Under the pieces are notes generated by a model. That model saw only the letters and a program-made list of their open reading frames with translations, was not told the origin of the DNA and ran no database searches. 27,956 nucleotides of DNA from a virus. This document shows, piece by piece, positions 3 to 26,224 of the stretch. The translations under genes were made by a program, and so were the position numbers. Location: IMG/VR virus record IMGVR_UViG_3300035145_001945, positions 1-27,956 of that record. The stretch is one strand, 5' to 3'. Every line of letters begins with the position of its first letter. Position 1 is the stretch's first letter.

Positions 3-1025
3 GTAAAAGAAGGCGGTGCAGAGTTTGATGTAAATCCAGAATACTTAGAAGTGTCATTTGGCAACGAGTGCAACTTCCGTTGTGGATACTGTCATCCAAA
101 AGCCAGCAGCAGATATTATCAAGAAATCAAACAACATGGCCCTTATACTAATGTGCGTAATCATAGATGTGATATTGATTGGTTCCAAATATTTGAAGAA
201 GAAAACAATCCGTATTTAGATGCATTTTGGCGTTGGTGGCCTGAGCTTAGTAAAGAACTGCATATTCTGCGTATTACAGGCGGCGAGCCGACAATACAAC
301 AAAGCACATACAAACTGTTTGATATGTTGGACGCAGATCCTAAGCCAGAACTTGAACTCAATTGTAACAGCAACTTAGGTGGCAAACCAAAGCAGTTAGA
401 AAAGTTTACAAATCGTGTAAATGATTTGTTAACAAACAATAAGATTAAACGCTTTAAAATGTTTACAAGTATTGATACTTGGGGTAAACGTGCAGAATAC
501 ATACGTGACGGATTAGACATTGAAGTGTTCGAACGTAACCTAGATTATTTTATGCGCAACTGTGAAGCACCTATGGTGTTGATGATTACTTTTAACATAT
601 TCAGTGTGACAACATTCCGTACACTATTAGAAAAAATATTAGAATGGCGTGCAAAATACAATGACGTAGAAACACATAGATGGCAGCGTTTGGGTTTTGA
701 TACACCGCACCTTAAAGAGCCACTACAATATGATATTAACATTTTGCCAAACAACTATATGACCTATATGCGTGATCATTTGCAGTTTATTAAAGAAAAT
801 GTAGATGACAATCGCAAAGATGCATTTAGCACTATTGAGTATGAAAAGTTTAGACGTGTTGTTGATTATATGGATACAACAGAATATCCATTAGACAAAG
901 TTATACAAGGACGTAGAGATTTCCACAACTTTTTTGAAGAACAAGGACGCAGACGCGGAGTTGACCACAAACAAGTGTTTCCGGAAATGTCAGACTTTTT
1001 TGAGTTGTGCAGCAAATACGTCTAG
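3..1025 (+). CDS. Radical SAM protein, 5' end outside the window
   Basis: The reading frame is open from the first bases, so the start lies upstream. The GTG at 51 falls inside the first beta strand of the fold and is unlikely to be the true start. The visible chain shows the 4Fe-4S/SAM motif CNFRCGYC (C-x3-C-x2-C, about residues 23-30 of the visible part), then RITGGEP, the SAM-binding GGE(P) loop, near base 280. It ends with RRRGVDHKQVFPEM, a version of a C-terminal signature shared by many radical SAM proteins downstream. The chemistry is expected to be SAM cleavage to a 5'-deoxyadenosyl radical; the substrate is unknown. Any N-terminal auxiliary cluster would lie outside the window. The 3' end overlaps the converging GNAT-like gene by 36 bases, leaving no room for an intergenic terminator. 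Confidence 0.88.
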   Translation, partial: VKEGGAEFDVNPEYLEVSFGNECNFRCGYCHPKASSRYYQEIKQHGPYTNVRNHRCDIDWFQIFEEENNPYLDAFWRWWPELSKELHILRITGGEPTIQQSTYKLFDMLDADPKPELELNCNSNLGGKPKQLEKFTNRVNDLLTNNKIKRFKMFTSIDTWGKRAEYIRDGLDIEVFERNLDYFMRNCEAPMVLMITFNIFSVTTFRTLLEKILEWRAKYNDVETHRWQRLGFDTPHLKEPLQYDINILPNNYMTYMRDHLQFIKENVDDNRKDAFSTIEYEKFRRVVDYMDTTEYPLDKVIQGRRDFHNFFEEQGRRRGVDHKQVFPEMSDFFELCSKYV

Positions 1026-1604
1026 TACTGCTTTTGATTCGGGCCATTGCACTTTAGACAAATCACTTAACCAATGTTCAACATCAACTTTCCAAAATGT
1101 TTGAAATGCACCTTTGTACTCTAGTTCAAATGGATCTTTTAGGTATCCGTGTCTATGCATTATCTTTGCCCAAGTCCTATGCACTTTACGTTGACTTGCT
1201 GTTTCCAAGTTGTTTGTGCTTACATACATAGGTTTTTCTAACCCTAAGTAATAAAAACAAGCAGGCGTTAGCATTTGGCTTGTGTGATGATTCATAGGGC
1301 TGCGATCATTGTTGTGTACTTTGTGTCCGCGGACATCGTCTACACGTTCAATAAGCAATGCTGTACGTGCCGCAATACGGTGTGCATCCTTGCCTAATAT
1401 TCCGAGTTGACGCAAACTGTGTGTGATTGTTGTGCCTATTACTCTGTCTTTATAATACAAAAGTATCAGTGTAGCATCTTCGTGCTTATCAATGTAATCA
1501 ATAAGCACTGTTTTGTTATGGTTGTTGTAAAAGCCTCTAGCAGCAGCACCTTCGTACCAGTCTTCTAAATCCTGTGTACCGTTGTAAACTTCTAGTCTAT
1601 ACAA
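990..1604 (-). CDS. GNAT-like acyltransferase (tentative)
   Basis: A 204-residue protein. The stretch ATLILLYYKDRVIGTTITH (residues 44-62) reads as the paired beta strands that begin a GNAT acetyltransferase core, followed by LLIERVDDVRGHKVHNND (83-100), where GNAT proteins place the strand and turn before the acyl-CoA loop. The classical Q/RxxGxG/A loop is not clear, so the family call is tentative. The start is read as TTG at 1604, with AGGA nine bases upstream on the minus strand; it overlaps the end of the adenylation gene by eight bases, so the two are probably translationally coupled. An adenylation enzyme followed by an acyltransferase suggests that an activated carboxylate is passed to an acceptor (inference). 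The 3' end overlaps the radical SAM gene on the other strand. Confidence 0.55.
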   Translation of the reverse strand: MYRLEVYNGTQDLEDWYEGAAARGFYNNHNKTVLIDYIDKHEDATLILLYYKDRVIGTTITHSLRQLGILGKDAHRIAARTALLIERVDDVRGHKVHNNDRSPMNHHTSQMLTPACFYYLGLEKPMYVSTNNLETASQRKVHRTWAKIMHRHGYLKDPFELEYKGAFQTFWKVDVEHWLSDLSKVQWPESKAVLDVFAAQLKKV

Positions 1605-2586
1605 AAACTTGTGTCCTGTCGATCTTACGCAGATTATCGTCTACTTTGATTTCATCTACTTTTTTTGCTTTGATTTCATATGCGCATTTGTGTTGTTTTG
1701 TAAACTTCGTAATATCCAAATCGCCTGTGTAATACACAACACATTCATGTGCAACTTTTCTACATAATGCTAAACTCGCACCATTCTCAATAGCAACTTT
1801 TTCTATCTGTTCTGGATATACTCTGTCACCGCAGTTTTCCATTTTGAACGCATTAAATCTGCGTCCTGATAATGCAAACTCACCATCTTCAGTTATTTCT
1901 ATAAGATCACCACTATGCCAATATTCTGATTGGTCTCTGTATTTACAGGCAAATTCTATTGTTCCATCATCGTGATTAATAAACTTGTAATCAATGTTAG
2001 GATTGATGTTATTAAAATGATATATGTCTTGTTTTTCTGTTGACATAATAATAGGAGGAACCTCAGTGCTGCCATAGCCGGTGTTAACCTGTTGCGCACC
2101 CCTAGCTCTTAAATCCTCCATAAGTCCTGTAGGAGTAATGTCACTACCTACTTGCATTTGCTTCATACAACTTAAATCTAGATTTTGCCATTTCTTGTGT
2201 CTATGCCAAGTTTTCCAAACATTAGGCAAAATAAGCATATTTGTTGGTTGTACTTCTTTAATCCTATCTGGTAGATTAGCAACGGTGGTTTCAATAAATG
2301 TATCACAGTTTGCAACGTGACAAGGATACAAACTCATACTTGTAAACCCAATACCTCTAGGATTGTACAATGCCATCATACTACTTTTTGAATCAAGCAT
2401 AAAATATTCTGCATTGTATTCTGCAACTTTGCGCATTAGTTCTGCACTGTGTTGATATGTTTTAGGATTACCAGTTGTTCCGCTGGTAGTTACTGTAATA
2501 TTCCAGTTTTCAAGATAGTTAATAACTGCTGATCTTACGTGATCATTATCACTTTCTAGATATTCTATTCCATCAATATAGATCAT
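1597..2586 (-). CDS. Minimal AMP-forming adenylation enzyme (ANL superfamily)
   Basis: The hallmarks of acyl/aminoacyl-adenylate-forming enzymes appear in order: A3 phosphate loop TSGTTGNPKT (34-43), A5 GYGSTE (170-175), A7 HSGDL (224-228), A8 hinge region from GRRFNAF (241 onward) and an A10-like NLRKIDR near the C terminus whose Lys321 is placed as the adenylation lysine. The chain is only 329 residues against roughly 500 or more for typical family members. It lacks the usual N-terminal segment of about 150 residues, beginning almost directly at A3, yet keeps the whole catalytic set, so it is a compact enzyme and not obvious debris. No carrier-protein domain is attached. The start ATG at 2586 has a perfect GGAGG ten bases upstream. 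The acid it activates cannot be read from sequence. The GNAT-like gene follows with an eight-base overlap. Confidence 0.85.
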   Translation of the reverse strand: MIYIDGIEYLESDNDHVRSAVINYLENWNITVTTSGTTGNPKTYQHSAELMRKVAEYNAEYFMLDSKSSMMALYNPRGIGFTSMSLYPCHVANCDTFIETTVANLPDRIKEVQPTNMLILPNVWKTWHRHKKWQNLDLSCMKQMQVGSDITPTGLMEDLRARGAQQVNTGYGSTEVPPIIMSTEKQDIYHFNNINPNIDYKFINHDDGTIEFACKYRDQSEYWHSGDLIEITEDGEFALSGRRFNAFKMENCGDRVYPEQIEKVAIENGASLALCRKVAHECVVYYTGDLDITKFTKQHKCAYEIKAKKVDEIKVDDNLRKIDRTQVFV

Positions 2587-2614
2587 TCTGAAAACACCTC
2601 CAAATCTTTAGTTT

Positions 2615-2625: not shown

Positions 2626-2630
2626 TAGAT

Positions 2631-4082
2631 TTAGTGTAAGTCAACCCAAGAACTACCTGTATAGCCTTGGAATTTGTTTGCACTTGTGTTAAAAATAATC
2701 ATACCAGCTTCTGCTGTCATGCTATCTCTTTGTGCAAAGGTTTGACCTCTTGGTTTAAATACTGGTGCAGATAGTGTTCCTTTGTTATCAAACTCTAAGT
2801 TTTGAGAACCAAACACATTTGCTTGAGCATTATTATCAGCTAGTCCGAGAACAAATTTTGCTGGCATACCTGTGCCTGTTGCACTCGGAGTACCGTCTAC
2901 AACAAATGCTAATCCGCCTGCAGATACATAACCGTTTCCATTATAACCTTCTATTTGCAATGTGCCTATAACATCGTTATTATTCAAAGCAGCCTTAGAG
3001 TCTACAGATCCTCTATATGCTTGCATCATTTGTATAGGACCGCTGTTGTCATCATCTGCAACGACTGCACACATGGTTAAATCGTCACTATTGATTATAA
3101 CTTCGGATGCAGGATCGTTGTACATACCAATGTGTATATTTCCGTTAATAGCATGTAAAACTGAGCCATGATTTGCTGCACTTACTACATATGGAGTAGA
3201 ATCTTCTGATCCATCATCGTAAACAACACTACCTTCTACTACACCTTTAAATGTTGCTCTGTGAGGCAATGAAGTGTCTGTATGAAGTTCTAAAACATTT
3301 GTGCCGTCATAATGATTAATATTTGCCCTAAGATTTGTACTTGCTCTATTGTCACCAATATCAATCACAGGACCTTTTGCTACATCGCTAACAGGAGGAT
3401 TATGCGGAGTACCTATTCCGCCTCTGTATTCATGCTGTGCGTAATCTTCATTCCAGGCTGTAATATTCACAGGCCCAGTGCTATCATCCCAAGTTGCTTG
3501 TAGATCTCCGTGCAAGTTACCAGTGATATTACCTGTGACGTTACCAGTTACGTCTCCAACTACTTCACCAGTATGTGTACCTGTTACATCGCCAAAAAAA
3601 TCGCCATATGCTGTACCATTAAAGTCGCCATTGAATGTACCGTAAATAACACTTTCACTTGTAATACTACCGTTTACATCACCGTAAAACGTGTCTGCTG
3701 TAATAGTATCTGCTGTAATGCTTCTTGTAGCAGTGTTTAAGATTTGGTCTCCGTCTGCATCAACAATGTTACCTACTAAGGTTGCAGTGACCTTGCCAGT
3801 CAACGCATTGAAAGCTAAGTTGCCGTTTGCGTCATATACATTACCACGCAAACTACCGTTAAGTCTTCCTGATGTATAATCTAATACAGTATTGCCTTCT
3901 CCATCTTCTACATCACCAACAAATACACCAAATAGTGTTCCTGTGCTAACATCTACAAGTATTGAGCCATTGCTTGCTACAACATCTGCTTTTAGTGTCC
4001 CCTGCCAACTATCAACTATGATACTTTCGTCAGCTGTGATAATGTCTAATCTATATGATTCACCTGGTATAAAATCTGTCAT
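2631..4082 (-). CDS. Phage tail fibre / virion structural protein with repeats
   Basis: A 483-residue protein of low-complexity structural type. Residues about 33-128 hold four tandem repeats of about 24 residues of the form VxDxxGNxxLxxxTGxLxGxLxG. They are followed by many short GDVTG/GNVTG/GDFNG units (about 134-193), as in triple-stranded beta fibre shafts. A globular middle follows, and the C-terminal end GMIIFNTSANKFQGYTGSSW (460-479) is a tip motif frequent in marine phage fibres. No catalytic motif is visible. It probably trimerises and contacts the host surface. The start ATG at 4082 is preceded by GGAGG at 4092-4088 and a late-type promoter octamer. It is the only clearly structural gene in the window and the main evidence for a tailed phage. 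Whether it is a long, short or accessory fibre cannot be decided. Confidence 0.85.
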   Translation of the reverse strand: MTDFIPGESYRLDIITADESIIVDSWQGTLKADVVASNGSILVDVSTGTLFGVFVGDVEDGEGNTVLDYTSGRLNGSLRGNVYDANGNLAFNALTGKVTATLVGNIVDADGDQILNTATRSITADTITADTFYGDVNGSITSESVIYGTFNGDFNGTAYGDFFGDVTGTHTGEVVGDVTGNVTGNITGNLHGDLQATWDDSTGPVNITAWNEDYAQHEYRGGIGTPHNPPVSDVAKGPVIDIGDNRASTNLRANINHYDGTNVLELHTDTSLPHRATFKGVVEGSVVYDDGSEDSTPYVVSAANHGSVLHAINGNIHIGMYNDPASEVIINSDDLTMCAVVADDDNSGPIQMMQAYRGSVDSKAALNNNDVIGTLQIEGYNGNGYVSAGGLAFVVDGTPSATGTGMPAKFVLGLADNNAQANVFGSQNLEFDNKGTLSAPVFKPRGQTFAQRDSMTAEAGMIIFNTSANKFQGYTGSSWVDLH

Positions 4083-4154: not shown

Positions 4155-5486
4155 ATGTATGATATATTTTTTATCGGCGACCGATCTTTCTATGAATCAC
4201 AATGGCAAAAGTTAAAAAACAGTTATCCAACTGTAAAAAATGCTAGTACACTTGATGAAGCAAAACAAAAGTGTTTTACTAAGTTTTTTTGGATAGTGTG
4301 GCCTGATCTTGATGTAGTTGAAGATTTTAACTTTGATTACACTCCAGACGAATGGAGTCAAGATTACATACACGTTTTTAAAAACAATGACGAATATGAT
4401 GGAATAGTTTTGTTTCCAAGAAAAGCAGAAGTTACAAAACGTGAACTTGACCACAGATTTTTTCTAACAAAGAAAGAAGTTAATATAATTGCAAGTATGC
4501 CTACAAAATATGAAATTTTTTATGTTGATACATATGAAGAATATACACATGCACTAGAATCATCAAAATATGATATGTTTTGGGTTGTACCACCAACTGT
4601 AAAAGTTTTAGAAGATTTTAAGTTTGATACATATTTTACACATCATAACTCTTATGATAGAAGAATAAATCATATGTTTCTAAACGGACAGTATCATGAT
4701 GGCGTTATGCTGTGTAGTAAAAAGTTAAAAATAAGTAAAAGAGAATGGTTGTTCAAGTTTATTGCTGGTAAGAAAGAACACGATGATATAGCAAGCATGC
4801 CACATCCTTATGATGTTGTTTTTATTAGTTATCAAGAACCCGATGCTGATATAAACTATGAAAACTTGAAAAAGAAAGTACCTAACGCAAAACGAGTACA
4901 TGGAGTAAAAGGCATTCATAATGCACATATTGAAGCAGCAAAACTGTGCAATACTCCTATGATTTGGATTGTAGACGGAGATGCAACTATTGTAGATGAT
5001 TTCAACTTTGACTATCAAGTGCCAGCATGGCAATATAATCATGTGCATGTTTGGCGTAGTAAAAATCCTGTGAATGGACTTGTGTATGGATACGGTGGCG
5101 TTAAACTTTTTCCAAGAGAACTTACAGAAAATATGGATACAAGTAAACCTGATATGACAACTAGTATTAGTGACAAGTTTGTTGCTGTAAAAAAAGTTAG
5201 TAATATCACAGGATTTAATACAGGCGAGTTTGAAACTTGGAAAAGTGCATTCAGAGAATGTTGTAAACTAAGTAGTAAGGTTATTGACAGACAAAAAGAT
5301 GATGAAACTAACATGCGACTTAAAATATGGACAAGTATAGGAAAAGATAAACCGTTTGGAGAATATGCAATAGCTGGTGCTCGTGCAGGAATGGCATATG
5401 GTTCTGCAAATAAAGACCATAAAGAAGCACTAAAACTTATCAATGATTTTGATTGGCTTAAGGAACAGTTTAATGGAAATTTATAA
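4155..5486 (+). CDS. Glycosyltransferase-like protein with three tandem domain copies
   Basis: A 443-residue protein built from three related segments, about 1-117, 118-218 and 219-325. Each opens with a YDIFFIGD/YEIFYVDT/YDVVFISY strand, has a central FWIVWPD/FWVVPPT/IWIVDGD strand followed by a (E/D)DFxFD turn, and closes with a G(I/V)xLxxRK/KK-like strand. Only the third copy has an intact DGD (274-276) of the kind that binds metal-nucleotide-sugar in GT-A enzymes, plus a VHGVKGIHNAH segment. I infer that copy three is catalytic and the first two are degenerate or binding copies. The C-terminal 120 residues are extra. It heads the rightward run; the start ATG lies at the predicted transcript start with no visible ribosome site. 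Known relatives in marine phages are mostly unnamed or annotated as glycosyltransferases, so the enzymatic call is moderate. Confidence 0.65.
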   Translation: MYDIFFIGDRSFYESQWQKLKNSYPTVKNASTLDEAKQKCFTKFFWIVWPDLDVVEDFNFDYTPDEWSQDYIHVFKNNDEYDGIVLFPRKAEVTKRELDHRFFLTKKEVNIIASMPTKYEIFYVDTYEEYTHALESSKYDMFWVVPPTVKVLEDFKFDTYFTHHNSYDRRINHMFLNGQYHDGVMLCSKKLKISKREWLFKFIAGKKEHDDIASMPHPYDVVFISYQEPDADINYENLKKKVPNAKRVHGVKGIHNAHIEAAKLCNTPMIWIVDGDATIVDDFNFDYQVPAWQYNHVHVWRSKNPVNGLVYGYGGVKLFPRELTENMDTSKPDMTTSISDKFVAVKKVSNITGFNTGEFETWKSAFRECCKLSSKVIDRQKDDETNMRLKIWTSIGKDKPFGEYAIAGARAGMAYGSANKDHKEALKLINDFDWLKEQFNGNL

Positions 5487-6513
5487 AATATTAGACAGAT
5501 TTGAACTATTGTATCCAAACGATGAAAGATTTGCTGATTTACGTAGAGCATATATTGATAGAGATTTAAACAGTGTGTTTAGATTAGTTGATAAAGAAGA
5601 ACTACGTAAAGCAATAGTTGAAAAAAATATTCACAGTATTTTTAGATGTATTGATAATCAACGTGTGGTTGGTGAAATAGAAGATTTTAGAAAAGCTGTA
5701 ATGGAACAAAATCTTCATAGTTTATTTAGATTACTACCAGGCAATGAAGATTTACGAAAAGCTGTTACTGAAGATAATGAACACAGCATATTTAGATTGA
5801 TTGATAATGACGATCTAACAGGTTTAATCTTATACGATAACATTTATAGTCTTTGGAGGTTGATTAAATCTTATATTGATACACATTTTGTATACGCTTT
5901 TAAGTTTATGAATGAGCAAGGCATCAACTTTGACGAAGATTGTTTTAGCAGAGGACAACTACAAAGTAAGATTTGGCTAGTAAATGAACTTAAACGTGTA
6001 GGTGTCGATTTAGGAACTGTATTTTTATGTGCAGGGTGGTATGGTACACTTGCGGTAATGCTATTTGAATCAGGTATAAGTTTAGAAAAAATCAGAAGTT
6101 TTGACATTGATGAATCTACTGAAGATATTGCAGAGGTGTTTAACAGACATTGGGTGATTAATGATTGGAAGTTCAAACCAGTTGTGCAAGATATACATGA
6201 CATTGACTTTAATGAGCATTGTTATATTGTAAAGAAAAGAGGCGATGATTTTGAAAGATTATGGGATACTCCAGATACTATAATAAACACAAGTTGTGAA
6301 CACATAGAAAATTTTGATACATGGTATGAAAAAATACCTAGTGGAAAACTTGTTGTCTTACAATGTAATGATTATGAAGAGATTGAAGAACATGTAAATA
6401 CACATGCAACAATAGATAGTTTTGCAGAACAAACTCCAATGGATGTAGAACTGTATAGCGGTGAGTTACAACTAGACAAATATAAAAGGTATATGCGTAT
6501 TGGATATAAATGA
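5473..6513 (+). CDS. Repeat-bearing class I SAM-dependent methyltransferase
   Basis: The first 135 of 346 residues are five imperfect repeats of about 22 residues, each (L/F)RKAVxExNxHSIFRLIDN, at about 21-42, 44-62, 72-90, 93-111 and 115-131, predicted helical. The rest is a Rossmann-type methyltransferase core: VFLCAGWYGT (183-192, SAM-binding motif I), SFDID (209-213, acidic end of strand 2) and INTSCEH (271-277, strand 4). The ATG at 5473 is chosen because AAGGA lies nine bases upstream and it gives the 14-base overlap typical of this operon; an ATG at 5443 is in frame but would overlap more. The methyl acceptor is unknown. The repeats probably bind a partner or substrate (inference). Confidence 0.75.
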   Translation: MEIYKILDRFELLYPNDERFADLRRAYIDRDLNSVFRLVDKEELRKAIVEKNIHSIFRCIDNQRVVGEIEDFRKAVMEQNLHSLFRLLPGNEDLRKAVTEDNEHSIFRLIDNDDLTGLILYDNIYSLWRLIKSYIDTHFVYAFKFMNEQGINFDEDCFSRGQLQSKIWLVNELKRVGVDLGTVFLCAGWYGTLAVMLFESGISLEKIRSFDIDESTEDIAEVFNRHWVINDWKFKPVVQDIHDIDFNEHCYIVKKRGDDFERLWDTPDTIINTSCEHIENFDTWYEKIPSGKLVVLQCNDYEEIEEHVNTHATIDSFAEQTPMDVELYSGELQLDKYKRYMRIGYK

Positions 6514-6724
6514 TTTAGAAGTTAGACAACTACAAACTGAAAGTGCTAGAGCACTAAGTACAATGCAAGCTACAAATAATAATATTTGGCAGTTTAACAA
6601 AAAAGCACATCACAATAGTCAAAACTGGTATAAGGCTGTTATCGAATGGTATATTGATCAGTATGGAGACTTGCCTAGCAAAGTAGGTCCTGGTAAGGAT
6701 GTAAAATTAATATACGATGTATAA
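6500..6724 (+). CDS. Small protein of unknown function, 74 residues
   Basis: I do not recognise this protein. It is polar, rich in Asn, Gln and aromatic residues (NNNIWQFNKKAHHNSQNWYK, 26-45), with no cysteine, signal peptide or membrane segment. The start is read as TTG at 6500 with AAAGG eleven bases upstream; the first in-frame ATG is 21 codons in. It overlaps the methyltransferase by 14 bases and the next radical SAM gene by eight, so it is clearly part of the operon. Small genes next to radical SAM-SPASM genes can be peptide substrates or their chaperones, but nothing in the sequence proves that here. Confidence 0.65.
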   Translation: MDINDLEVRQLQTESARALSTMQATNNNIWQFNKKAHHNSQNWYKAVIEWYIDQYGDLPSKVGPGKDVKLIYDV

Positions 6725-7796
6725 GTATGAAAATATAAAAACAATACATTTAGAAAACACACAAAACTGTCAAGCAAGTTGTCCTATGTGTGATCGGAAT
6801 CAAAACGGCGGCGCTTTAAATCCACATATTGATTTGAGTGAACTTACTCTCGATGATTGTAAAACAATATTTGAACCAGATTTTATTGCACAACTAGAAA
6901 CTATGTATATGTGTGGCAACTTAGGTGATCCTATCGTTGCACGTGACACGCTTGATATATTCAAATACTTTAGAGAGCATAACGCAGACATGTGGCTTTC
7001 TATGAATACAAATGCAGGAGCAAAAGATGAAACATGGTGGCGTGAACTTGCCCAAGTCTACGGTAGAATGGGCACTGTTATTTTTAGTGTGGATGGTCTT
7101 AGTGACACTAATCATCTATACAGGCAGGGTGTTGTCTGGGACAATGTAGAACGCAACATGCGAGCATTCATAGATGCTGGCGGCAGAGCACGTTGGGACT
7201 TTTTAATCTTTGAACACAACCAACATCAAGTTGAAGAAGCAGAAGCATTAGCAAATGCTTGGGGATGTGAAAAGTTTATCAAAAAGAAAACAGGTAGATT
7301 TGTTACAGCTAGTAGCGAAAAGAAAGAATCTCATCAAGCAGTAAATCGCAAAGGCAAGGAAACACAAAAGTTATCCAAGCCAAAACAAGAGTTTCAAAAT
7401 GATGCTATAAAACAGTACGACAAAGTAAAAAGCAAACATGGTAGCATGGATGCATATTATGATAGAGCAGAAATCCAATGCAAAGTAAAAGATGAAGGCA
7501 GCTTGTTTATTACAGCAGAAGGACTTGCTATGCCTTGTTGCTGGACTGCTGGACGTATGTACAAATGGTGGCATAAAGATCCTAAGGTAGAACAAGTGTG
7601 GGACTTTATTGATGACGTAGGCGGCAAAGACGCGATCAGTGCTAAGACTCATGGATTACGTGCAGTGTTTGATACAGGTATATTTGATAACATAGAAGCC
7701 AGTTGGAGCAAGCCAAGTTGTGCAGATGGCAAGTTAAAAGTATGTAGTATGAAGTGCGGTAAAGAGTTTGATCCGTTTGGAGCCCAGTTTAAGTGA
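6717..7796 (+). CDS. Radical SAM protein with C-terminal SPASM-like cluster domain
   Basis: The core begins at once: CQASCPMC (C18, C22, C25), then CGNLGDP (C66 onward), which takes the place of the GGEP loop in this subfamily. A long lysine-rich segment (about 185-240) links the core to a C-terminal auxiliary domain with C255, PCC at 273-275, C335, C343 and C347, a pattern expected to hold one or more extra Fe-S clusters as in SPASM/twitch enzymes. The length is 359 residues. The gene at 10053 and the split pair 21633/22295 share the same plan. SPASM-type radical enzymes often act on peptides or proteins, but the substrate is unknown. The ATG overlaps the preceding stop by eight bases and the end overlaps the next gene as GTGA. 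Confidence 0.88.
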   Translation: MYKYENIKTIHLENTQNCQASCPMCDRNQNGGALNPHIDLSELTLDDCKTIFEPDFIAQLETMYMCGNLGDPIVARDTLDIFKYFREHNADMWLSMNTNAGAKDETWWRELAQVYGRMGTVIFSVDGLSDTNHLYRQGVVWDNVERNMRAFIDAGGRARWDFLIFEHNQHQVEEAEALANAWGCEKFIKKKTGRFVTASSEKKESHQAVNRKGKETQKLSKPKQEFQNDAIKQYDKVKSKHGSMDAYYDRAEIQCKVKDEGSLFITAEGLAMPCCWTAGRMYKWWHKDPKVEQVWDFIDDVGGKDAISAKTHGLRAVFDTGIFDNIEASWSKPSCADGKLKVCSMKCGKEFDPFGAQFK

Positions 7797-19034: not shown

Positions 19035-20344
19035 TAAAAGGTGAAAAAACATTTTGCCCTATACCTTGGATATTTCAAGCTGTGCGTAGCAACGGAGATA
19101 TACGTGTATGTTGTCAAGCAAACGTAACAAAAAATAGAGGAGTTGTACGCAAAGAAGATGGCACAGCGTATAATGCAGGTGTAGACGATCTAAGCGAAGC
19201 ACGTAATGCTAAACTTATGAAGGATATTCGTAGGAACATGATGAGCAGTAAATGGAGTGACGAGTGCGGACGTTGTATGCAAGAAGAAGAAGCTGGACTT
19301 ACTAGTCGTAGACAATACGAAAGAGTTCAATGGAAGTTTGGTATGCTTGATGCTTTAAAAAGCACAAAGTTAGACGGCAGTATTGATGTCGAGAAGTCTC
19401 CTGTACAATATTATGACTTACGTTTTGGTAACTTTTGTAACTTAAAATGTAGAATGTGTGGTCCGAGTGATAGTAATGCATGGTTTGAAGATTGGATAAA
19501 ACTTACAGGCAAACAAAGTTTTATGGACACTAGTGGCGAAGTTACAATCGAAGAAGTTAATGGTAAACTTTGTGCTGCTGACTTTGATTGGCCAAACAGT
19601 GAAATGTTTTGGACACAAATGGAGCGCAATATACAACACATGGAACATGTATATTTTGCAGGTGGTGAACCAATGCTTATAGAAAGGCATTACGAGTTTT
19701 TGCAAAAATGCATAGATAGCGGATATGCTGAAAATATCATGCTTGAATACAATACCAACGGAACTACATTACCTCCTAGAGTTGTCAAGTTATGGGAACA
19801 GTTTAAGGAAGTTAGACTAGGAGTAAGTGTAGACGGCATGGATGCAGTTTTAGAGTACCAACGTTATCCAGTTAAGTGGAGCAAAGTGTTAAAGAATCTA
19901 AAAACTATTGATGCATTACCTAACAACATAAAAGCATGGCTTGCATTTACAGTTACAGCATACAATGTTGAACATATGATTGATTTTATGAAATGGAAAG
20001 TCGAAGAAAGTGGATTTAAAAAAATAAACAATGGAGGTGTAAAACCTATTATTACTCATCATGTTGCACACAATCCTCCGCATTTAAATATTAGAGTTCT
20101 ACCTGATGAATATAAAAAAGAACTTACACAAAAGTTTGACGACTTTGTTGAATGGTCAAAAGATTATGATAAAAAATATCAAATAGCTGCACTTGGTATA
20201 CGCAACGGTGTTTGTAAGTACATGAATGATTATAGTTATAACAACACACATTGGGCAGAGTTTATACAATACACAAAAGATTTAGACCGTATTAGAAATG
20301 AAAATATTTACGATGTAGTACCGTCATTAGGAAGGTACATATGA
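19031..20344 (+). CDS. N-terminal-twitch radical SAM protein
   Basis: Start ATG at 19031, with GGAG eight bases upstream and an ATGA overlap; an in-frame TTG at 18989 would add an unconserved stretch. Auxiliary domain: FCPIPWIFQAVRSNGDIRVCC (C9, C27-C28) and CGRC (C79, C82). Radical SAM motif CNLKCRMC (C136, C140, C143), AGGEP (210-214). C-terminal signature DRIRNENIYDVVPSL. The cysteines up to the radical SAM motif have exactly the same numbering as in the gene at 22584, and the DLRFGN(F/L)CNLKC block is shared, so these two look like the most closely related pair in the array. It has 437 residues; the substrate is unknown. Confidence 0.91.
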   Translation: MIKGEKTFCPIPWIFQAVRSNGDIRVCCQANVTKNRGVVRKEDGTAYNAGVDDLSEARNAKLMKDIRRNMMSSKWSDECGRCMQEEEAGLTSRRQYERVQWKFGMLDALKSTKLDGSIDVEKSPVQYYDLRFGNFCNLKCRMCGPSDSNAWFEDWIKLTGKQSFMDTSGEVTIEEVNGKLCAADFDWPNSEMFWTQMERNIQHMEHVYFAGGEPMLIERHYEFLQKCIDSGYAENIMLEYNTNGTTLPPRVVKLWEQFKEVRLGVSVDGMDAVLEYQRYPVKWSKVLKNLKTIDALPNNIKAWLAFTVTAYNVEHMIDFMKWKVEESGFKKINNGGVKPIITHHVAHNPPHLNIRVLPDEYKKELTQKFDDFVEWSKDYDKKYQIAALGIRNGVCKYMNDYSYNNTHWAEFIQYTKDLDRIRNENIYDVVPSLGRYI

Positions 20345-21636
20345 CAACTCTAGTTGAAATGAAAACCAAGTTACAAGATTTAGGTGTAAATCCTGATACT
20401 TTTTGTTTTGCTCCATATATAAATGTTGACCTAGATCAAACAGGCGAAACATATGTGTGTTGTGCAAGTAAACAAAGTATCGGTAACTGGAAAACAGATA
20501 AAATAAAAAATCAATATAATAGTTCACAGATGCAAGAGCTACGTAGTAGTCTGTACAATGGAGAAAAACATTCTTCGTGCAGAAGTTGCTGGTTTGCAGA
20601 AAGTAAAAACAGTAAATCCACACGTTTAGATAGTTTTAACGATGCCATTGAATACATTGATGATTTGCAAAACTTTGTAGGCGATATCAAACAAAATGTT
20701 GATATGTCATCTACAGACAATATCAAACGTATGGAAATAAGATTAAGTGCATTGTGCAACTTGAAATGTGCGCATTGCAGTCCAAAGTATAGTACTCAAT
20801 GGATAAACACTCTTACTGAAAAAAGCAACTTTGACTTTTTTAAAGATTATGACGAGTTTGAAGACAACTTATCTCATGACAATATAAACAAGTATTTTAG
20901 CACAAGTCTACACAGTAACAGTAAGCACGAAAATGACATCAAAGAAATGTTATCAAATACTAACTTAATACAGTTTGCAGGCGGAGAGCCATTGTTAAGT
21001 CCAGAACATGTTTCTTGGTTAGAATACTTAGTAAACGTAGCAAAAACATCTAAGACGCAAACAATAGAATACAATACTAACTTGATGATTAAAGATATTG
21101 AAAAGTTTTTTGATTTATGGAGACAATTTAAATCAGTTACTTTGAGATCCAGTATAGATACAGACTTAGATAGTATAGAATACTTTAGAGCTAACAGCGA
21201 TAAAAACTTGTTAAAAAATAACATAAAGAAAATACATCAGTTAGAAAATGTTGATAACATTGGTACTGTAACTTTTAACATGACATCGGCACTTAGATAT
21301 AAAAATATTATGCATGATTGGATTGAACATGATTTAAACTTTCATTGTAGTATTGTGCATAACCATCCGTTTAGTTGTTTAGAACTACCTACAAATCTTC
21401 ATAGACAATGTGTTGCAGATATGCAATGGTGTAAAGACAATGTACACAAGTATACAGACAATAATAAGTTTGTTAAACGTTTTAAAAAATACACAGACTA
21501 CTGTTTAAACTTTATTACAAATCATACACCAAAAACACATATGTCTAAAAGCACAATAGAATATATAAAATTTTATGATAAGGTCACAGATAAAAATATA
21601 TTAGATTTTTTTCCAGAACTTGAGGAGTATGTATGA
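20341..21636 (+). CDS. N-terminal-twitch radical SAM protein
   Basis: A 12-residue N-terminal addition precedes the auxiliary domain: FCFAPYINVDLDQTG (C22), CC at 40-41, CRSC (C80, C83) and a KNSKSTR helix. Radical SAM motif CNLKCAHC (C139, C143, C146), AGGEP (213-217). C-terminal DKNILDFFPELEEY. The length is 431 residues. It starts and ends with four-base ATGA overlaps. Codon use looks the same as in its neighbours, with no sign of recent transfer relative to them. The substrate is unknown. Confidence 0.91.
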   Translation: MTTLVEMKTKLQDLGVNPDTFCFAPYINVDLDQTGETYVCCASKQSIGNWKTDKIKNQYNSSQMQELRSSLYNGEKHSSCRSCWFAESKNSKSTRLDSFNDAIEYIDDLQNFVGDIKQNVDMSSTDNIKRMEIRLSALCNLKCAHCSPKYSTQWINTLTEKSNFDFFKDYDEFEDNLSHDNINKYFSTSLHSNSKHENDIKEMLSNTNLIQFAGGEPLLSPEHVSWLEYLVNVAKTSKTQTIEYNTNLMIKDIEKFFDLWRQFKSVTLRSSIDTDLDSIEYFRANSDKNLLKNNIKKIHQLENVDNIGTVTFNMTSALRYKNIMHDWIEHDLNFHCSIVHNHPFSCLELPTNLHRQCVADMQWCKDNVHKYTDNNKFVKRFKKYTDYCLNFITNHTPKTHMSKSTIEYIKFYDKVTDKNILDFFPELEEYV

Positions 21637-22295
21637 AAATAGACTGGGCAAAAGACTGGCAAGGTTTTGAACTAAGCATTACGACATATTGTCAAGCCAA
21701 TTGTCCTTTGTGTGTGCGTACAGATAGACAAACTGGTAAGTTAAAAAGTTATGTTAGATTAGAGCATTCTAATATTGATACAATAATAAAAACTATAAAT
21801 GATGTTGCTAAGTATACCTCTTGTGAAAAGATACAACTATGTGGTGATTACGGAGATCCATTAATGCATCCACACATAGAAGATATTATATATGAAGTCG
21901 AAAAAGTAGGTTTATGGACAAGTATACATACAAACGGTGGCTTAAGAAATCCAGGGTTTTATAAAAAGATCGCAATGACAACTGAAACTGTGTTTGTCTT
22001 TGGTATTGATGGTATTGACGAAAAAACTAATTCTAAATACCGCATAGGTGTAAACTTTGATAAAGCAATGGAAAACATGAAAACATTTGGAGCATATGCA
22101 AAAAAATATTATTCAGAGTGGGATTTTTTAATCTTTGATTATAACTATGAACAACTTGACGAAGCAATAGAAATAGCAGAATCTAATAATATTAAGTTAA
22201 ACTTTCGTATTAATACAAGAGATTGGAAATATAAAATAACAGACAAAAAACTTATTGAGCATATAAGATCTAAGTATAAAGAAAGGTTGTTGTAA
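21633..22295 (+). CDS. Radical SAM core, stand-alone (split from its cluster domain)
   Basis: A 220-residue protein with CQANCPLC (C20, C24, C27) and CGDYGDP (C70 onward), the same plan as the first 190 or so residues of the genes at 6717 and 10053, with the DFLIFDYN strand also shared. It stops exactly where those proteins have a lysine-rich linker, and the C-terminal Cys domain is encoded by the next gene in a different frame. The junction is TAATG, a one-base overlap, and the next gene has its own ribosome site. I read this as a natural split enzyme whose two chains probably assemble, although an older frameshift that became fixed would look the same. Confidence 0.85.
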   Translation: MKIDWAKDWQGFELSITTYCQANCPLCVRTDRQTGKLKSYVRLEHSNIDTIIKTINDVAKYTSCEKIQLCGDYGDPLMHPHIEDIIYEVEKVGLWTSIHTNGGLRNPGFYKKIAMTTETVFVFGIDGIDEKTNSKYRIGVNFDKAMENMKTFGAYAKKYYSEWDFLIFDYNYEQLDEAIEIAESNNIKLNFRINTRDWKYKITDKKLIEHIRSKYKERLL

Positions 22296-22600
22296 TGCCA
22301 ACATTCTATTTTGACGAAAAAGATAAGCCTAGAAAAATAAAATGCAGAAGTTGGGGATTTATTAATGACGAACAAGGTAGAGTATGGCCTTGTTGCCATG
22401 TTTGCACTACAAATGTAAATCATAGTCCTTACTTAAAAAAACTTAATGAAGAAGATCCTGATTGGAATAACTTGAATGTCAAATCTTTGAAAGAAGTTAT
22501 AGAACATGAAGCATACCAAAAGCATTTTAATCAAGAGCACTTTGAAGATCATGATAAAGTAGATATTATTTGTTGGAACGATTGTGGACACGAAGAATAA
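22295..22600 (+). CDS. Stand-alone SPASM/twitch-like Fe-S domain protein
   Basis: A 101-residue protein with C17, PCC at 32-34, C37, C93 and C97. It aligns by eye with the C-terminal third of the radical SAM gene at 10053: GRVWPCC against QTMWPCC, DPDWNNL against DPGWNSL, and a closing CWNDC against CIRTC. It therefore looks like the auxiliary cluster-binding half of the radical SAM enzyme just upstream. The start ATG overlaps the upstream stop by one base, with AAAGG shortly before. An additional cysteine (C37) is not present in the relative. It has no radical SAM motif of its own. Confidence 0.78.
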   Translation: MPTFYFDEKDKPRKIKCRSWGFINDEQGRVWPCCHVCTTNVNHSPYLKKLNEEDPDWNNLNVKSLKEVIEHEAYQKHFNQEHFEDHDKVDIICWNDCGHEE

Positions 22601-23867
22601 CTCATTTTGTGTGATACCTTGGGTGGGTGTTGCAAGTAAACCTAATGGAACTGCACGTATATGTTGCTTAATGCATCAGTACGGCAATGGCGGTGTGTTA
22701 GAAGATAACAAAGGCAAACCTTACAATTTTAGAAATGCAGATTTTGACAATATTTACAACAGTAAACTTTATAAAGATGTAAGATTAAGTATGCTGAATA
22801 ATCAGCGACATGAACTATGTAAGACTTGTTGGATAAGAGAAGATTCAAATAACAGTACAAGTAGCAGAAGAATACATAGCAATAAAATGTATAAAGAGTT
22901 TGACATTGAGTATGCTAAACAAGTGACAGACGAAGACGGTTACAGTTCACATGTTCCGTCATATTACGATTTACGTTTTGGTAACTTGTGTAATCTCAAG
23001 TGTGTAATGTGTCATCCTAGTAGTAGTAACATGTGGTATGAAGATTTTATTCTGTTAAACAACAAAACAAGTTACAACGATAGTGGAACACAAGTAAACC
23101 TTACTCGTATAGGCAAAAAGCTCAGTGACGGAGGTGCATATAGTTGGTGGCAAAGTGATGTTTTTTGGCAAAACCTTGAAAATAAAATGCACAACATAAA
23201 GCATTTGTATTTTGTAGGCGGAGAGCCTATGTTGATAGAACCACATTATGATTTCCTACAAAAACTAGTTGATGCAGGATTAGCAAAAAACATAAAGTTA
23301 GAATACGACACTAACCTAACAAATATACATCAACGTGCAATCGACTTGTGGAAAAACTTTGAGCATGTAGAACTTAGAGTAAGTTTAGAGGATTTCGGTG
23401 AACAAAATAACTACATTAGATTTCCTAGCAAGTGGCATATTATTGATAGGAATATCAAACGTATAGAAGCACTTAACCTTCCAAACTTTTATTTGGCTTT
23501 TAGCATTACCTGGCAAGTTTTAAACAGTTTTACTATTACTAACTTGTTAGACTATCTTCGTAAATATGAAGAAAGTGCTATAAGAATATTAAGCGAACCT
23601 GAAGAATTTGATGTTGCATTTTTGCCAAAATGTGCTAAAATAAAATTAGTAGAACATTACAATAACTGGGCCGGCGATGATCGTTGGAAGCAGAAGAAAG
23701 TTGCACCGTTAATAAAATATATTAAAACAAATATGGATAACTATACTAGCAAATGGTATAAACAGTTTTTTGTCACTGTAGAAAAACTAGATAGTGCAAG
23801 GAACACAAACTGGAAGCAAACATTCCCAGAGTTGAATAAGGAGATAAGTAATGAGCACATGGACTGA
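22584..23867 (+). CDS. N-terminal-twitch radical SAM protein
   Basis: GTG start at 22584, with GGAAC a few bases upstream and a 17-base overlap. Auxiliary domain: FCVIPWVGVASKPNGTARICC (C9, C27-C28) and CKTC (C79, C82). Radical SAM motif CNLKCVMC (C136, C140, C143), VGGEP (211-215). C-terminal DSARNTNWKQTFPEL. The cysteine positions match the gene at 19031 exactly through the radical SAM motif, indicating a recent paralogue within the array. It has 427 residues; the substrate is unknown. The amidinotransferase follows with a 17-base overlap. Confidence 0.91.
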   Translation: MDTKNNSFCVIPWVGVASKPNGTARICCLMHQYGNGGVLEDNKGKPYNFRNADFDNIYNSKLYKDVRLSMLNNQRHELCKTCWIREDSNNSTSSRRIHSNKMYKEFDIEYAKQVTDEDGYSSHVPSYYDLRFGNLCNLKCVMCHPSSSNMWYEDFILLNNKTSYNDSGTQVNLTRIGKKLSDGGAYSWWQSDVFWQNLENKMHNIKHLYFVGGEPMLIEPHYDFLQKLVDAGLAKNIKLEYDTNLTNIHQRAIDLWKNFEHVELRVSLEDFGEQNNYIRFPSKWHIIDRNIKRIEALNLPNFYLAFSITWQVLNSFTITNLLDYLRKYEESAIRILSEPEEFDVAFLPKCAKIKLVEHYNNWAGDDRWKQKKVAPLIKYIKTNMDNYTSKWYKQFFVTVEKLDSARNTNWKQTFPELNKEISNEHMD

Positions 23868-24909
23868 GTTTCAACCATTGAAAGAAACTATTGTCGGAAA
23901 AGCATTTAGTCCTGACGATTTTGATAAAGTCGAAGATCAAGAAGCAAAAGATCTTTTAAAACGCATTTGTGAAGAAACAAATGAAGATATTGAAGACTTG
24001 GTAAAAATATTAGAAGATGCAGGTGTAAAAGTTCATCGTCCTAACAATCTCTTTGCATATGAAACATATGAATCTATACAAACACCTTGGTTTAATGCAA
24101 CATTTCCTAATCATCCACTTATGCCACGAGATGTATTAGGTGTCTTTGGCAACACTATCGTAGAACATTTTACAGCTCAAGGTGGTAGATTTTTTGAAAA
24201 CTTAGCATATCAAGATATTAGTCGTGAAATGTACGATAATGGTATGCGATGGTTGTCAATGCCAATGCCAAAAGTAACAAGTCAAAACTCTGCAAATGTT
24301 AAACCACCATATCACACAGATAATCAAATTCTTTTTCATGCTGCTAACATTGTCAAATGTGGTAAAGACTTGTTTCATAGTCAATCGGGCAATAAAGATA
24401 TTAAAAAAGGTAAAGGCACTGAAGTTGGACTTGAATGGCTTAAACGTGAACTTGGAGACGAGTTTAGATGGAACGAAGTTCCTGTAGGTGGTCATTGTGA
24501 TGGTAAAATAGCATTATTAAAGCCAGGTGTACTAATGACTTGGAATAAAGATTGGGTGCCAGATAGGTTAAAAAACTGGGATATTATTGAAGCTGATAGC
24601 GAAACAGATTTACCTAAAGAGTTTGAGAATATGCGTAAACAAAGATTTTATAAAGATTTTATTGATGAATATTTTTCTCATTGGACTGGACAAATTGAAG
24701 AAACAGTATTTGATGTAAATGTGTTTAGCATATCAGAAGAAGCAGTGATTTGTACAGGCACAAATAAAGATGCATTTCGCAGAATGGAAAAACAAGGTAT
24801 TACTCCTATATTTTGGAAGTTTAGACATCAGTACTTTTGGGACGGAGGAGTACATTGTCTAACACAAGATTTAGTTAGAGAAGGAGAACAAGAAGATTAC
24901 TTTGGATAG
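23851..24909 (+). CDS. Amidinotransferase (glycine amidinotransferase-like)
   Basis: A 352-residue guanidino-group enzyme of the AGAT/StrB1 type, which moves an amidino group from arginine to an amine through a cysteine intermediate. Visible motifs are PRDVLGVFGNTIVE (92-105), GGHCDGKIALLKPGVL (213-228) with His215 and Asp217, and WDGGVHCLTQD (330-340) with the catalytic Cys336. In AGAT and StrB1 the segment FDAADxxRxGxDxF supplies a catalytic aspartate; here it reads FHAANIVKCGKDLF (162-175), putting His163 at that place. The ribosome site AAGGAG is excellent. The acceptor amine is unknown; neighbouring PLP and radical SAM genes could make or use it (inference). Confidence 0.85.
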   Translation: MSTWTEFQPLKETIVGKAFSPDDFDKVEDQEAKDLLKRICEETNEDIEDLVKILEDAGVKVHRPNNLFAYETYESIQTPWFNATFPNHPLMPRDVLGVFGNTIVEHFTAQGGRFFENLAYQDISREMYDNGMRWLSMPMPKVTSQNSANVKPPYHTDNQILFHAANIVKCGKDLFHSQSGNKDIKKGKGTEVGLEWLKRELGDEFRWNEVPVGGHCDGKIALLKPGVLMTWNKDWVPDRLKNWDIIEADSETDLPKEFENMRKQRFYKDFIDEYFSHWTGQIEETVFDVNVFSISEEAVICTGTNKDAFRRMEKQGITPIFWKFRHQYFWDGGVHCLTQDLVREGEQEDYFG

Positions 24910-26224
24910 AAACAAATGGGCAGATACTATTCCTGCTCCTTTATGTATAGCACCTTGGAAAGCTCTTAGTATTGATTTCAATGGTAATGTTTCTCCTGAT
25001 CAGATATTCAAAGGTGTTATGGGTAATCTTAACACACAAACTCTTGATGAAATATGGAACAGTGAAGAATGGAAAAGTTTAAGACAATCTCATATAAACT
25101 TCCACAATGACACTAGATGTAGAAAATGTTTTCATAAAGAAGAACTAACTGGGCATAGCAGGCGTAGATTTTTTGAATCATTTTTTGGAAGTAGACTACC
25201 AAAAGAGGATCTTGAGGAAATTATATATCCTGATCGTAAAGGTAATCTTGATCCTGCAAATGCATCCAATCGTCCTAAAATAAGAAACTACGATGAACCA
25301 GATTTTATATACTTAGATATAAATGGATCAAATAAGTGTAATCTAAAATGTATTCATTGTAGCAGCAGTGCAAGTACAGGATGGATTCCTGATGAAAAAA
25401 AGATAAAAAAATATTTGGATAAGAATCCAGAAGCGTGGCCTATAGGAACTTCATGGCCTTATATGGCTGTTGATAGTAATGTTGTAGATAACTTATTTGA
25501 TAATAAAGAATATTTTGAAAACTTGCAGTTTGTTGCACTAAGAGGCGGTGAACCTTTTTACGAAAAGAAAAACTTGTATGTTTTGCAAAAACTTATATCA
25601 CTTGGCTGGAACGAAAGAATAACATTAGATATTAGCACTAATGCTACTGTTTTAGATCCAGCTTTTTTAGATTTGTTAAAACAGTTTAAAAGAGTTGTTT
25701 TATATATCAGTTTAGAAGGAATAGGCAAACTTTATAGTTATTGTAGAGGCGGCAAAAACTTTGATCAAGGACATCTTGATAAAGCAGTTGAATATTTTGC
25801 TAGTATTGATAATGTTGAACTTTGTTTAGCATACACAACAATGGCTCCTAATATTTTTAACGTTAGAAGCACATGGGATTGGTTTCAACAATATAAAGAC
25901 ATTTCTTCTATCACTTTTAGTAATACTGTCTCTGAACCAAGGTATTTGAGTTTAGATGTTTTATCTAATGAAATAAAAAAAGAAGCATATGATATGATAA
26001 AAGACATTGATGACGATTTAGAATGGCCTTTTGATAATGCTGACTTTGTTTATAGTGCAGGTATATGGAAGTTGTCACAAACATTATCTGAGGACACAGA
26101 AGAAAAAGACATACAAGAAAATCTTTGGAATAACTATGTAAACTTTACAAACTATTTAGATAGTATTAGAGGTACTAACTTTTTAGAGGCAGAACCTATG
26201 TACAGGAAATATTGGAATGAGTAA
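24902..26224 (+). CDS. N-terminal-twitch radical SAM protein lacking the CC pair
   Basis: Start read as TTG at 24902, an eight-base overlap with the amidinotransferase stop; no ATG lies near the expected N terminus. The auxiliary domain begins LCIAPWKALSIDFNGNV (C15), but where all single-module relatives except the gene at 14069 have CC it reads SPDQ (31-34), so two cluster ligands are missing; CRKC (C73, C76) is kept. GNLNTQTLDEIWNSEEW is a very canonical twitch-domain helix. Radical SAM motif CNLKCIHC (C146, C150, C153), RGGEP (214-218). C-terminal DSIRGTNFLEAEPM. The auxiliary cluster may be absent or have another ligand set. It has 440 residues. Confidence 0.89.
   Translation: MDRNKWADTIPAPLCIAPWKALSIDFNGNVSPDQIFKGVMGNLNTQTLDEIWNSEEWKSLRQSHINFHNDTRCRKCFHKEELTGHSRRRFFESFFGSRLPKEDLEEIIYPDRKGNLDPANASNRPKIRNYDEPDFIYLDINGSNKCNLKCIHCSSSASTGWIPDEKKIKKYLDKNPEAWPIGTSWPYMAVDSNVVDNLFDNKEYFENLQFVALRGGEPFYEKKNLYVLQKLISLGWNERITLDISTNATVLDPAFLDLLKQFKRVVLYISLEGIGKLYSYCRGGKNFDQGHLDKAVEYFASIDNVELCLAYTTMAPNIFNVRSTWDWFQQYKDISSITFSNTVSEPRYLSLDVLSNEIKKEAYDMIKDIDDDLEWPFDNADFVYSAGIWKLSQTLSEDTEEKDIQENLWNNYVNFTNYLDSIRGTNFLEAEPMYRKYWNE

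Follow-up and report, generated by a model that had tools for sequence, protein, structure and literature searches.

A stretch of 27,956 nucleotides from a virus (positions 1 to 27,956 of IMG/VR record IMGVR_UViG_3300035145_001945, hereafter the window) carries 13 genes for radical S-adenosylmethionine (rSAM) enzymes, comprising 14 rSAM domains. Comparison with related viral contigs showed that the cluster has a core of genes of recurrent order that co-evolves as a unit, followed by an exchangeable 3' half (open reading frames ORF20 to ORF27). Dense rSAM arrays are already known in T4-like phages; what appears to be new is a defined pathway with this ordered core. With something short of even confidence, we read the cluster as a pathway that would build or tailor a surface or virion glycan, its constant core and variable tail resembling the organization of an O-antigen locus. 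The features of the window are compiled in Table 1.

An ordered core and an exchangeable part

A sequence-only reading of the window had proposed that the array forms one pathway, working either as successive steps on one scaffold or as a panel of related modifications; independent gain and loss of the genes in related phages, with no co-occurrence, would have spoken against it. Viral contigs were scanned with ORF19, ORF15 and an ORF7 alignment, which retrieved 45, 53 and 463 relatives, respectively, 80 of the 463 being kept. These IMG/VR contigs are fragments, and the absence of a gene from a contig is no proof of its loss. The same gene order, which the sequence-only reading had suggested seeking in viral contigs, recurred among related loci as (ORF4 on the other strand)-5-6-7-8-(9)-10-12-(13)-14-15-(19)-16-17-18-(19). 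The core set consists of ORF5-6-7-8-10-12-(13)-14-15-16-17-18 and a second ORF16-like rSAM gene, 16b. Among 46 loci non-redundant by ORF12 (median ORF12 identity 82%), ORF8 was present in 45, ORF10 in 43, and ORF15, ORF16 and ORF6 in 42 each, contig ends being uncorrected for. Nearly all relatives have the 16b rSAM (CNYRCSYCWPYARSD). The window lacks it, probably owing to the end of the contig, and it is predicted to lie downstream of the right end.

Pairwise distances among ORF5, 6, 7, 8, 10, 12, 14, 15, 16, 17 and 18 were correlated, with mirror-tree Spearman coefficients of 0.47-0.89 (0.65-0.89 for ORF17 against the core), and each core rSAM formed its own orthologue clade in the tree. The mirror-tree test keeps shared phage ancestry in; ORF19 serves as internal contrast, its coefficients against the core being only 0.08-0.41. 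No orthologue of ORF20, 21, 23 or 25 at 40% identity or more was found in related loci, and ORF24 and ORF26 were rare among them, which marks the 3' half as exchangeable. Viral-contig scans with ORF23 and ORF24 gave no relatives, a weak test as the seeds were short exact peptides. Independent gain and loss was thus ruled out for the core, given its fixed order and co-evolution, and was taken to apply to ORF19 as well as to the 3' half. The proposal of a pathway is supported, and both of its versions apply: the constant core corresponds to successive steps, exchangeable ORF19 and ORF20-27 to a panel of modifications.

A different view, taken in papers of 2010 and 2017, is that such genes pile up without a single pathway and serve general auxiliary metabolism or Fe-S support. 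A metabolic advantage at low oxygen was proposed for the Campylobacter T4-like phages CP220 and CPt10 (PMC2853527), and another report links 12 rSAM genes to Fe-S metabolism (PMC5332604). The fixed order, the co-evolution, a gene set that scarcely varies over 46 non-redundant loci and the separate orthologue clade of every core rSAM argue against this view, to which we give a low probability.

Accessory genes of the relatives comprised Asp/Asn hydroxylases, nitroreductases, QueC, Asn synthase, DegT aminotransferase, uridine diphosphate (UDP)-glucose dehydrogenase, FkbM methyltransferase and GT2. Extra PP-loop (SGGADS) genes were seen in the exchangeable part of two relatives (L035:14925-15593 and L048:18914-19660), suggesting repeated recruitment of QueC-like enzymes. 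INPHARED was searched at the nucleotide level with the window's first 25 kb, which gave no match; protein searches gave none with ORF5, 15 and 16, and weak matches only with ORF8, 12, 19 and 25.

The radical SAM array

In the ORF translations of the window, 14 CxxxCxxC motifs were distributed over 13 ORFs, with two in ORF9. When the residues of every ORF were shuffled (500 trials), a mean of 0.14 genes and a maximum of 2 displayed the motif by chance. PF04055 has 13 matches on the IMG/VR record itself, and the model also fits ORF8. With hmmscan, the PF04055 cut-off was passed by ten ORFs; ORF10 lay under it, and ORF1 and ORF20 were slightly below it, yet above that of NF033640 (N_Twi_rSAM, N-terminal twitch; curated cut-off 170 bits), a family of which no characterised member was found in the literature searched. 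NF033640 was passed by nine ORFs representing ten domains (ORF1, 9 with two stretches, 12, 14, 18, 19, 20, 23 and 25) and failed by ORF8, 10, 16 and 21, at 29.6-39.1 bits. The SAM-binding motif (GGEx or GxxGDP) was kept in all 14 domains. Three architectures were distinguished: N-twitch-rSAM (10 domains), rSAM-C-SPASM (ORF8, ORF10 and ORF21 with ORF22) and a further kind represented by ORF16. With ORFs called mechanically, the 13 genes, 14 domains and three architectures of the sequence-only reading therefore stand, as does its remark that there is no obvious redundancy: no two rSAM paralogues of the window exceed 34% identity, whereas core orthologues in other phages reach 74-97%. This divergence indicates an old and diverse set with no recent expansion, and recent tandem duplication was ruled out on the same figures. 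Judged from their sequences, all 14 domains are distinct and apparently intact.

ORF22 is the SPASM half of ORF21, encoded as its own gene. The same split was found in independent phage loci (L034:13362-14413; L016:12464-13460, in L016/L074; L015:5128-6134), with adjacent genes for an rSAM domain of about 220-240 amino acids and a SPASM-like domain of about 96-123 amino acids. A frameshift error behind ORF21/22 was ruled out, since the split is kept in independent loci.

Viral context of the cluster

No capsid or terminase gene was identified within the window, and its phage origin is therefore drawn from the IMG/VR record and from its relatives. The T4-type major capsid protein gp23 (PF07068) was encoded on nine of 26 long related contigs, each of which had 6-22 PF04055 matches. 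NF033640 exceeded its cut-off in 14/14 related contigs and 0/14 control genomes, and had no match in Pelagibacter phage HTVC008M. Genomic context was read in two relatives (G021 and G013), where the cluster comes after gp25/gp6 baseplate and large fibre-type genes, and which carry several of gp20, gp21, gp23, gp43, gp46/47 and gp55 at 25-37% identity to HTVC008M. The cluster of G021 includes a UDP-glucose dehydrogenase. Such a location beside baseplate and tail-fibre genes, as in pelagimyophage islands, was seen in both relatives; the window is too short to show it. The window is best explained as part of a divergent T4-like phage's host-recognition island.

Three contigs labelled as metagenome-assembled genomes (MAGs) of Neisseriaceae, Rickettsiales and Gammaproteobacteria (L099, L113 and L114) carry the phage arrangement including ORF7. 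Their bacterial origin was ruled out by this arrangement, and they are probably phage contigs mis-binned into MAGs.

Partner genes

The partners bearing on function are the GT-A-like ORF5, the QueC-like ORF13 and ORF15, the amidinotransferase ORF24, the pyridoxal phosphate (PLP) enzyme-like ORF26 and the adenosine monophosphate (AMP)-ligase-like ORF3; the sequence-only reading of the array did not bring them in. In an alignment of ORF5 relatives, D274 and D276 of a DGD motif were invariant, and the predicted structure (pLDDT 87) had the glycosyltransferases RmlT, SunS and ManGT as leading Foldseek matches in PDB (E 4e-6). N-terminal repeats of the GT-like domain of ORF5 varied in number among phages (about 224 to 629 amino acids). 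ORF6 had no family above cut-off. Its N-terminal half consists of tandem repeats of about 19 amino acids (LRKAVLEDNLHSLFRL type) confined to one phage subgroup, and in a PDB profile search this half matched only designed repeat proteins; these matches, like those of ORF7 to designed helical proteins, were discounted as spurious simple-helix matches.

ORF13 contains SGGADS and CGKCFFC, matched a QueC-like PHROG (E=2.5e-4) and had 25 relatives in the loci. In ORF15, the SGGxDS ATP loop and the C-terminal metal-binding cysteines were invariant or nearly so among 29 sequences, and the model (pLDDT 93) had as best PDB folds QueC (3bl5, TMt 0.65) and the Cap9-CdnD deazaguanylation complex (9nto, TMt 0.62). 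The Pfam QueC model PF06508 was not passed (ORF13 14.1 bits, cut-off 22; ORF15 no match). The QueC likeness would also suit a nucleic-acid modification, such as a preQ0-like hypermodification of a DNA base or of tRNA, shielding the phage DNA, and rSAM and PLP enzymes do occur in phage thymidine hypermodification. No QueD-, FolE- or TGT-like gene was identified in the window, however; thymidylate synthase occurred in only three of nine incomplete relatives and never inside the conserved core, and the cluster sits in a fibre island, not in the replication module. We hold such a modification to be very improbable.

ORF24 is clearly predicted to be an amidinotransferase from the homology of its catalytic domain and a GGVHC catalytic Cys motif. 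It matched StrB1 (1bwd, phmmer 1.8e-28), SxtG and HsvA, and is 28% identical to CPT_0086 of CP220 and 27% to a glycine amidinotransferase of phage S-SCSM2R. Lys194 of ORF26 was invariant in the alignment, and ORF26 relatives weakly matched PF00282/PF00155. As StrB1, SxtG and HsvA all belong to small-molecule pathways, and as a PLP enzyme, PP-loop ligases, a short-chain dehydrogenase and an AMP-ligase are typical of such clusters, a diffusible product (aminocyclitol- or nucleoside-like, guanidinylated) acting on the host or on competitors was considered. It appears quite unlikely: ORF24, ORF26 and ORF3 are not core genes, neither a transporter nor a scaffold synthase was identified, and the ORF24 homologue of S-SCSM2R sits among lipopolysaccharide (LPS) and glycan genes (GT2, GT11, KdsA and KdsB).

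ORF7, a candidate substrate or scaffold, was found at 463 places in viral contigs. Its alignment had 20 invariant columns and was conserved end to end, and where the flank sufficed its neighbours were ORF6 in 80 of 80 loci, ORF5 in 75 of 75 and ORF8 in 56 of 57. It is possible that the pathway modifies a protein, in the manner of ribosomally synthesized and post-translationally modified peptides (RiPPs): rSAM enzymes would cross-link or epimerise ORF7, ORF5 would glycosylate it as SunS does, and ORF13/15 would conjugate its N-terminus as Cap9 does. The fixed place of ORF7 between ORF6 and ORF8, the nearly constant adjacency of ORF5, 6 and 8 and the high conservation suit this explanation, as do the Foldseek matches of ORF5 to SunS and of ORF15 to Cap9-CdnD, the resemblance of ORF12 to SkfB and the many peptide maturases among weak hidden Markov model matches. 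Moreover, QueC-family enzymes modify proteins in type IV cyclic oligonucleotide-based antiphage signalling systems (CBASS) and probably also in qatABCD (PMC13279940). Against it, ORF7 is conserved throughout without a leader/core pattern and begins with MD or ME, not MG; neither a leader-binding domain of RiPP type nor a leader peptidase was identified, and the ORFs tile the window so that no other small ORF is left as precursor. We regard a protein substrate as rather unlikely, though it is the strongest alternative to a glycan.

Relatives in Bdellovibrionota and other cellular genomes

ORF12 relatives of 52-63% identity were found in Bdellovibrionota MAGs, many on long contigs with housekeeping neighbours. 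The ORF12 profile had a strong match in 23 of 141 genomes of one Bdellovibrionota order, reaching ORF12 grade (>700 bits) in about a dozen. These loci usually carry relatives of ORF8 (orthologues 38-47% identical) and 16b as well, and often of ORF5/ORF6; GT2 was the commonest Pfam family beside the rSAM genes (13 of 82 neighbour proteins). ORF8, ORF12 and 16b make up a module on Bdellovibrionota chromosomes, in many cases with glycosyltransferases as neighbours. In a midpoint-rooted tree whose bootstrap support is not fully settled, the phage ORF12 clade was nested among Bdellovibrionota, with some more distant viral sequences outside, a sequence-based pattern that suggests gene exchange without identifying a host. 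Membrane-protein pairs (HTTM-like by eye) and Tat-signal-type small proteins were seen near the rSAM genes in the flanks of L108, L101 and L105.

All 12 Bdellovibrionota genomes with the rSAM module lacked ORF7, and this is the main weakness of the proposal that a protein is modified. In a fuller version of that proposal, which we consider unlikely, T4-like phages would carry a large rSAM natural-product pathway acting on ORF7 as a ribosomally made scaffold. About seven core rSAMs, a glycosyltransferase and a conjugating enzyme of the QueC/Cap9 type would modify it together, and exchangeable genes would decorate it further. Modified proteins of a new class would then be made by phages, with an enzyme module that also occurs in Bdellovibrionota chromosomes.

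AT-rich, rSAM-rich islands with relatives of ORF12, 14, 15 and 16 were observed on a Chloroflexi MAG contig (L119) and an Acidimicrobiaceae MAG contig (L122), the former also having an ORF24 relative (40%). They form a further branch of the system, whether of phage or of bacterial origin.

Comparison with known systems

The sequence-only reading had taken a pathway built from these families to be undescribed. Its claim of novelty stands for the ordered core, of which no account was found in the literature searched, a body that takes in few subscription-journal papers or preprints, and falls for the dense array, precedents being CP220/CPt10, a Tara genome and the pelagimyophages. CP220 and CPt10 were reported in 2010 to encode 11 and 12 rSAM proteins, with an interchangeable block of five rSAM genes and an amidinotransferase (PMC2853527). 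We counted 11 PF04055 matches in CP220. Its stretch with rSAM genes and the amidinotransferase also holds two nucleoside diphosphate (NDP)-sugar transferases. Like the window, these T4-like phages combine an rSAM array with an amidinotransferase; their module, exchanged as one block, has GT-A type genes alongside, as with GT-A-like ORF5 here. Their rSAMs differ, however, being of the C-SPASM kind (ORF8/10/21-like) and at most 28% identical to those of the window; none was above the NF033640 cut-off (best E 7e-9), and no relatives of ORF5, 6, 7, 12 or 15 were found among the CP220 proteins tested.

By its published description, the 183-kb T4-like environmental genome TARA_ERS488813_N000010 (2017) resembles the window in having 12 rSAM genes, which were reported as Fe-S-related (PMC5332604). 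Pelagimyophage host-recognition islands (2020) gain 'radical SAM cassettes' as well as tail fibres and LPS glycosyltransferases (PMC7029224), and thereby resemble the present cluster in being hypervariable islands beside the baseplate and tail fibres of T4-like phages that join glycosyltransferases with rSAM. The cultured pelagimyophage HTVC008M differs in having one rSAM and a capsid only 34-35% identical to the capsids of the relatives. Vibrio phage K566 and its relatives share the N-twitch rSAM group: K566 has six NF033640 matches and, about 9 kb from its N-twitch rSAM genes, an annotated PagP, and genes that look glycosyltransferase-like by eye lie close to the group. Their rSAMs are fewer and more divergent, and no relatives of ORF5/6/7/15/16/17 were found among the K566 proteins tested. 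In Tasman Sea phages, rSAM, glycosyltransferases and RmlD are co-enriched (PMC7150976). With QueC, Cap9 and QatC, ORF15 shares the fold, the SGGxDS loop and the metal-site cysteines, whereas ORF13/15 lie under the Pfam QueC cut-off and their partner genes are unlike queuosine, CBASS or qat operons.

A tentative role in glycan tailoring

Several lines of evidence converge on a glycan as the product: the conserved order and mirror-tree co-evolution of ORF5-18; the site after baseplate and fibre genes, with LPS glycosyltransferases in the equivalent pelagimyophage island (PMC7029224); the glycosyltransferase matches of the ORF5 model and its invariant DxD; the UDP-glucose dehydrogenase in the G021 cluster and the DegT, FkbM and GT2 accessory genes; the Bdellovibrionota loci keeping ORF8, 16b and often ORF5/6 with GT2 neighbours; and the contexts in CP220, K566 and S-SCSM2R together with the Tasman Sea co-enrichment (PMC7150976).

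For the sugar substrate, the radical steps and the destination of the product, we infer the following scheme. ORF5, together with ORF6, would transfer a sugar. With 5'-deoxyadenosyl-radical chemistry, ORF8, 10, 12, 14, 16, 18 and 16b may oxidise, deoxygenate, epimerise or cross-link this sugar, and their twitch/SPASM clusters would presumably pass on electrons. The QueC-like ORF13/15 might activate a carboxylate with ATP and form an amide or a conjugate. The exchangeable genes (ORF19, the split rSAM 21+22, amidinotransferase 24, PLP enzyme 26 and others elsewhere) would add strain-specific decorations. The product would coat either the infected host, masking receptors against superinfection, or the phage's own fibres.

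A number of observations weigh against this scheme. The Foldseek TM-scores of ORF5 were low (0.13-0.40) and no Pfam model was passed by it; the window yielded no identifiable NDP-sugar synthase, flippase or polymerase. No sugar substrate is known for QueC-like enzymes, and the folds closest to ORF15 have deazaguanine or the N-termini of proteins as substrates. Peptides are the most frequent substrates of SPASM/twitch rSAM enzymes, the sole PDB profile match of ORF12 is the peptide maturase SkfB, and the accessory Asp/Asn hydroxylases and 2-oxoglutarate (2OG) oxygenases equally suit amino-acid substrates.

Border and accessory genes

ORF1 orthologues (89-90%) lie directly upstream of the core in L066 and G021, where the position of ORF2 is matched too. 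Relatives of ORF3 were found in 35 viral loci, several on contigs that also carry the core. In many relatives ORF4 is the neighbour of ORF5, encoded on the strand opposite to it; its matches were weak ones to PHROGs of unknown function. Accessory genes similar to ORF11 occur in relatives. Database searches gave no support for the label of ORF27.

Table 1. Predicted genes of the window, with positions, strands and assignments.
Gene	Position	Strand	Assignment and details
ORF1	3..1025	+	N-twitch rSAM; NF033640 212.8 bits; N-terminus lost at window edge; C-terminal FPE-type motif
ORF2	990..1604	-	acyltransferase-like, weak FeeM similarity; PF21926 E=0.029, below cut-off; island border
ORF3	1597..2586	-	AMP-dependent acyl/amino-acid ligase-like; PF00501 E=1.5e-13
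ORF4	2631..4082	-	tail-fibre-like (repeats, fibre-type C-terminus); left border of core
ORF5 (core)	4155..5486	+	GT-A-like glycosyltransferase; domain repeats
ORF6 (core)	5443..6513	+	N-terminal helical repeats of about 19 amino acids; conserved Rossmann/methyltransferase-like C-terminal domain
ORF7 (core)	6500..6724	+	conserved phage-specific protein of 74 amino acids
ORF8 (core)	6717..7796	+	rSAM, C-terminal SPASM-like cysteines; PF04055 30.4 bits; TIGR04317 5e-12, below cut-off
ORF9	7793..10060	+	two fused N-twitch-rSAM modules; NF033640 410.6 bits, two stretches
ORF10 (core)	10053..11099	+	rSAM, C-terminal SPASM-like cysteines; PF04055 24.8 bits, E=2.7e-5
ORF11	11089..11841	+	SGNH-hydrolase-like accessory gene, by sequence pattern (GSSHSxG start)
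ORF12 (core)	11846..13246	+	N-twitch rSAM; NF033640 427 bits; best-conserved gene of cluster
ORF13 (core, often present)	13125..14072	+	QueC-like PP-loop enzyme; C-terminal CxxCxxC
ORF14 (core)	14069..15403	+	N-twitch rSAM; NF033640 199 bits; own orthologue clade
ORF15 (core)	15375..16211	+	QueC/Cap9-like PP-loop enzyme; SGGADS, TRSCEGD, CxxCWWCxER
ORF16 (core)	16201..17355	+	rSAM, different C-terminal cysteines; PF04055 37.9 bits
ORF17 (core)	17339..17893	+	short-chain dehydrogenase-like; weak PF00106 and NF007829 matches
ORF18 (core)	17820..19034	+	N-twitch rSAM; NF033640 237.9 bits
ORF19	18989..20344	+	N-twitch rSAM; NF033640 381 bits; exchanged independently of core
ORF20 (variable part)	20341..21636	+	N-twitch rSAM; NF033640 235.9 bits
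ORF21 (variable part)	21633..22295	+	rSAM half of split pair; PF04055 44.3 bits
ORF22 (variable part)	22295..22600	+	SPASM half; PF13186 20.4 bits, cut-off 21.5
ORF23 (variable part)	22584..23867	+	N-twitch rSAM; NF033640 355 bits
ORF24 (variable part)	23851..24909	+	amidinotransferase, GGVHC motif
ORF25 (variable part)	24902..26224	+	N-twitch rSAM, twitch without CC pair; NF033640 239.9 bits
ORF26 (variable part)	26217..27143	+	PLP-dependent enzyme-like
ORF27 (variable part)	27140..27898	+	2OG-Fe(II)-oxygenase-like by eye only (HxD pattern)

Biological implications

The ordered core, with ORF7 as marker gene, turns the rSAM arrays of phages, an unexplained curiosity since 2010, into a testable pathway, and the ORF8-ORF12-16b module of Bdellovibrionota offers a possible cellular system in which the product may be found. 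Specific starting points for biochemistry are the split rSAM/SPASM pair and the QueC-like partners. Should the product prove to be a protein, modified phage proteins of a new class would follow; should it be a surface glycan, phages would be remodelling envelopes or fibres by radical chemistry, a substantial route that has gained little recognition.

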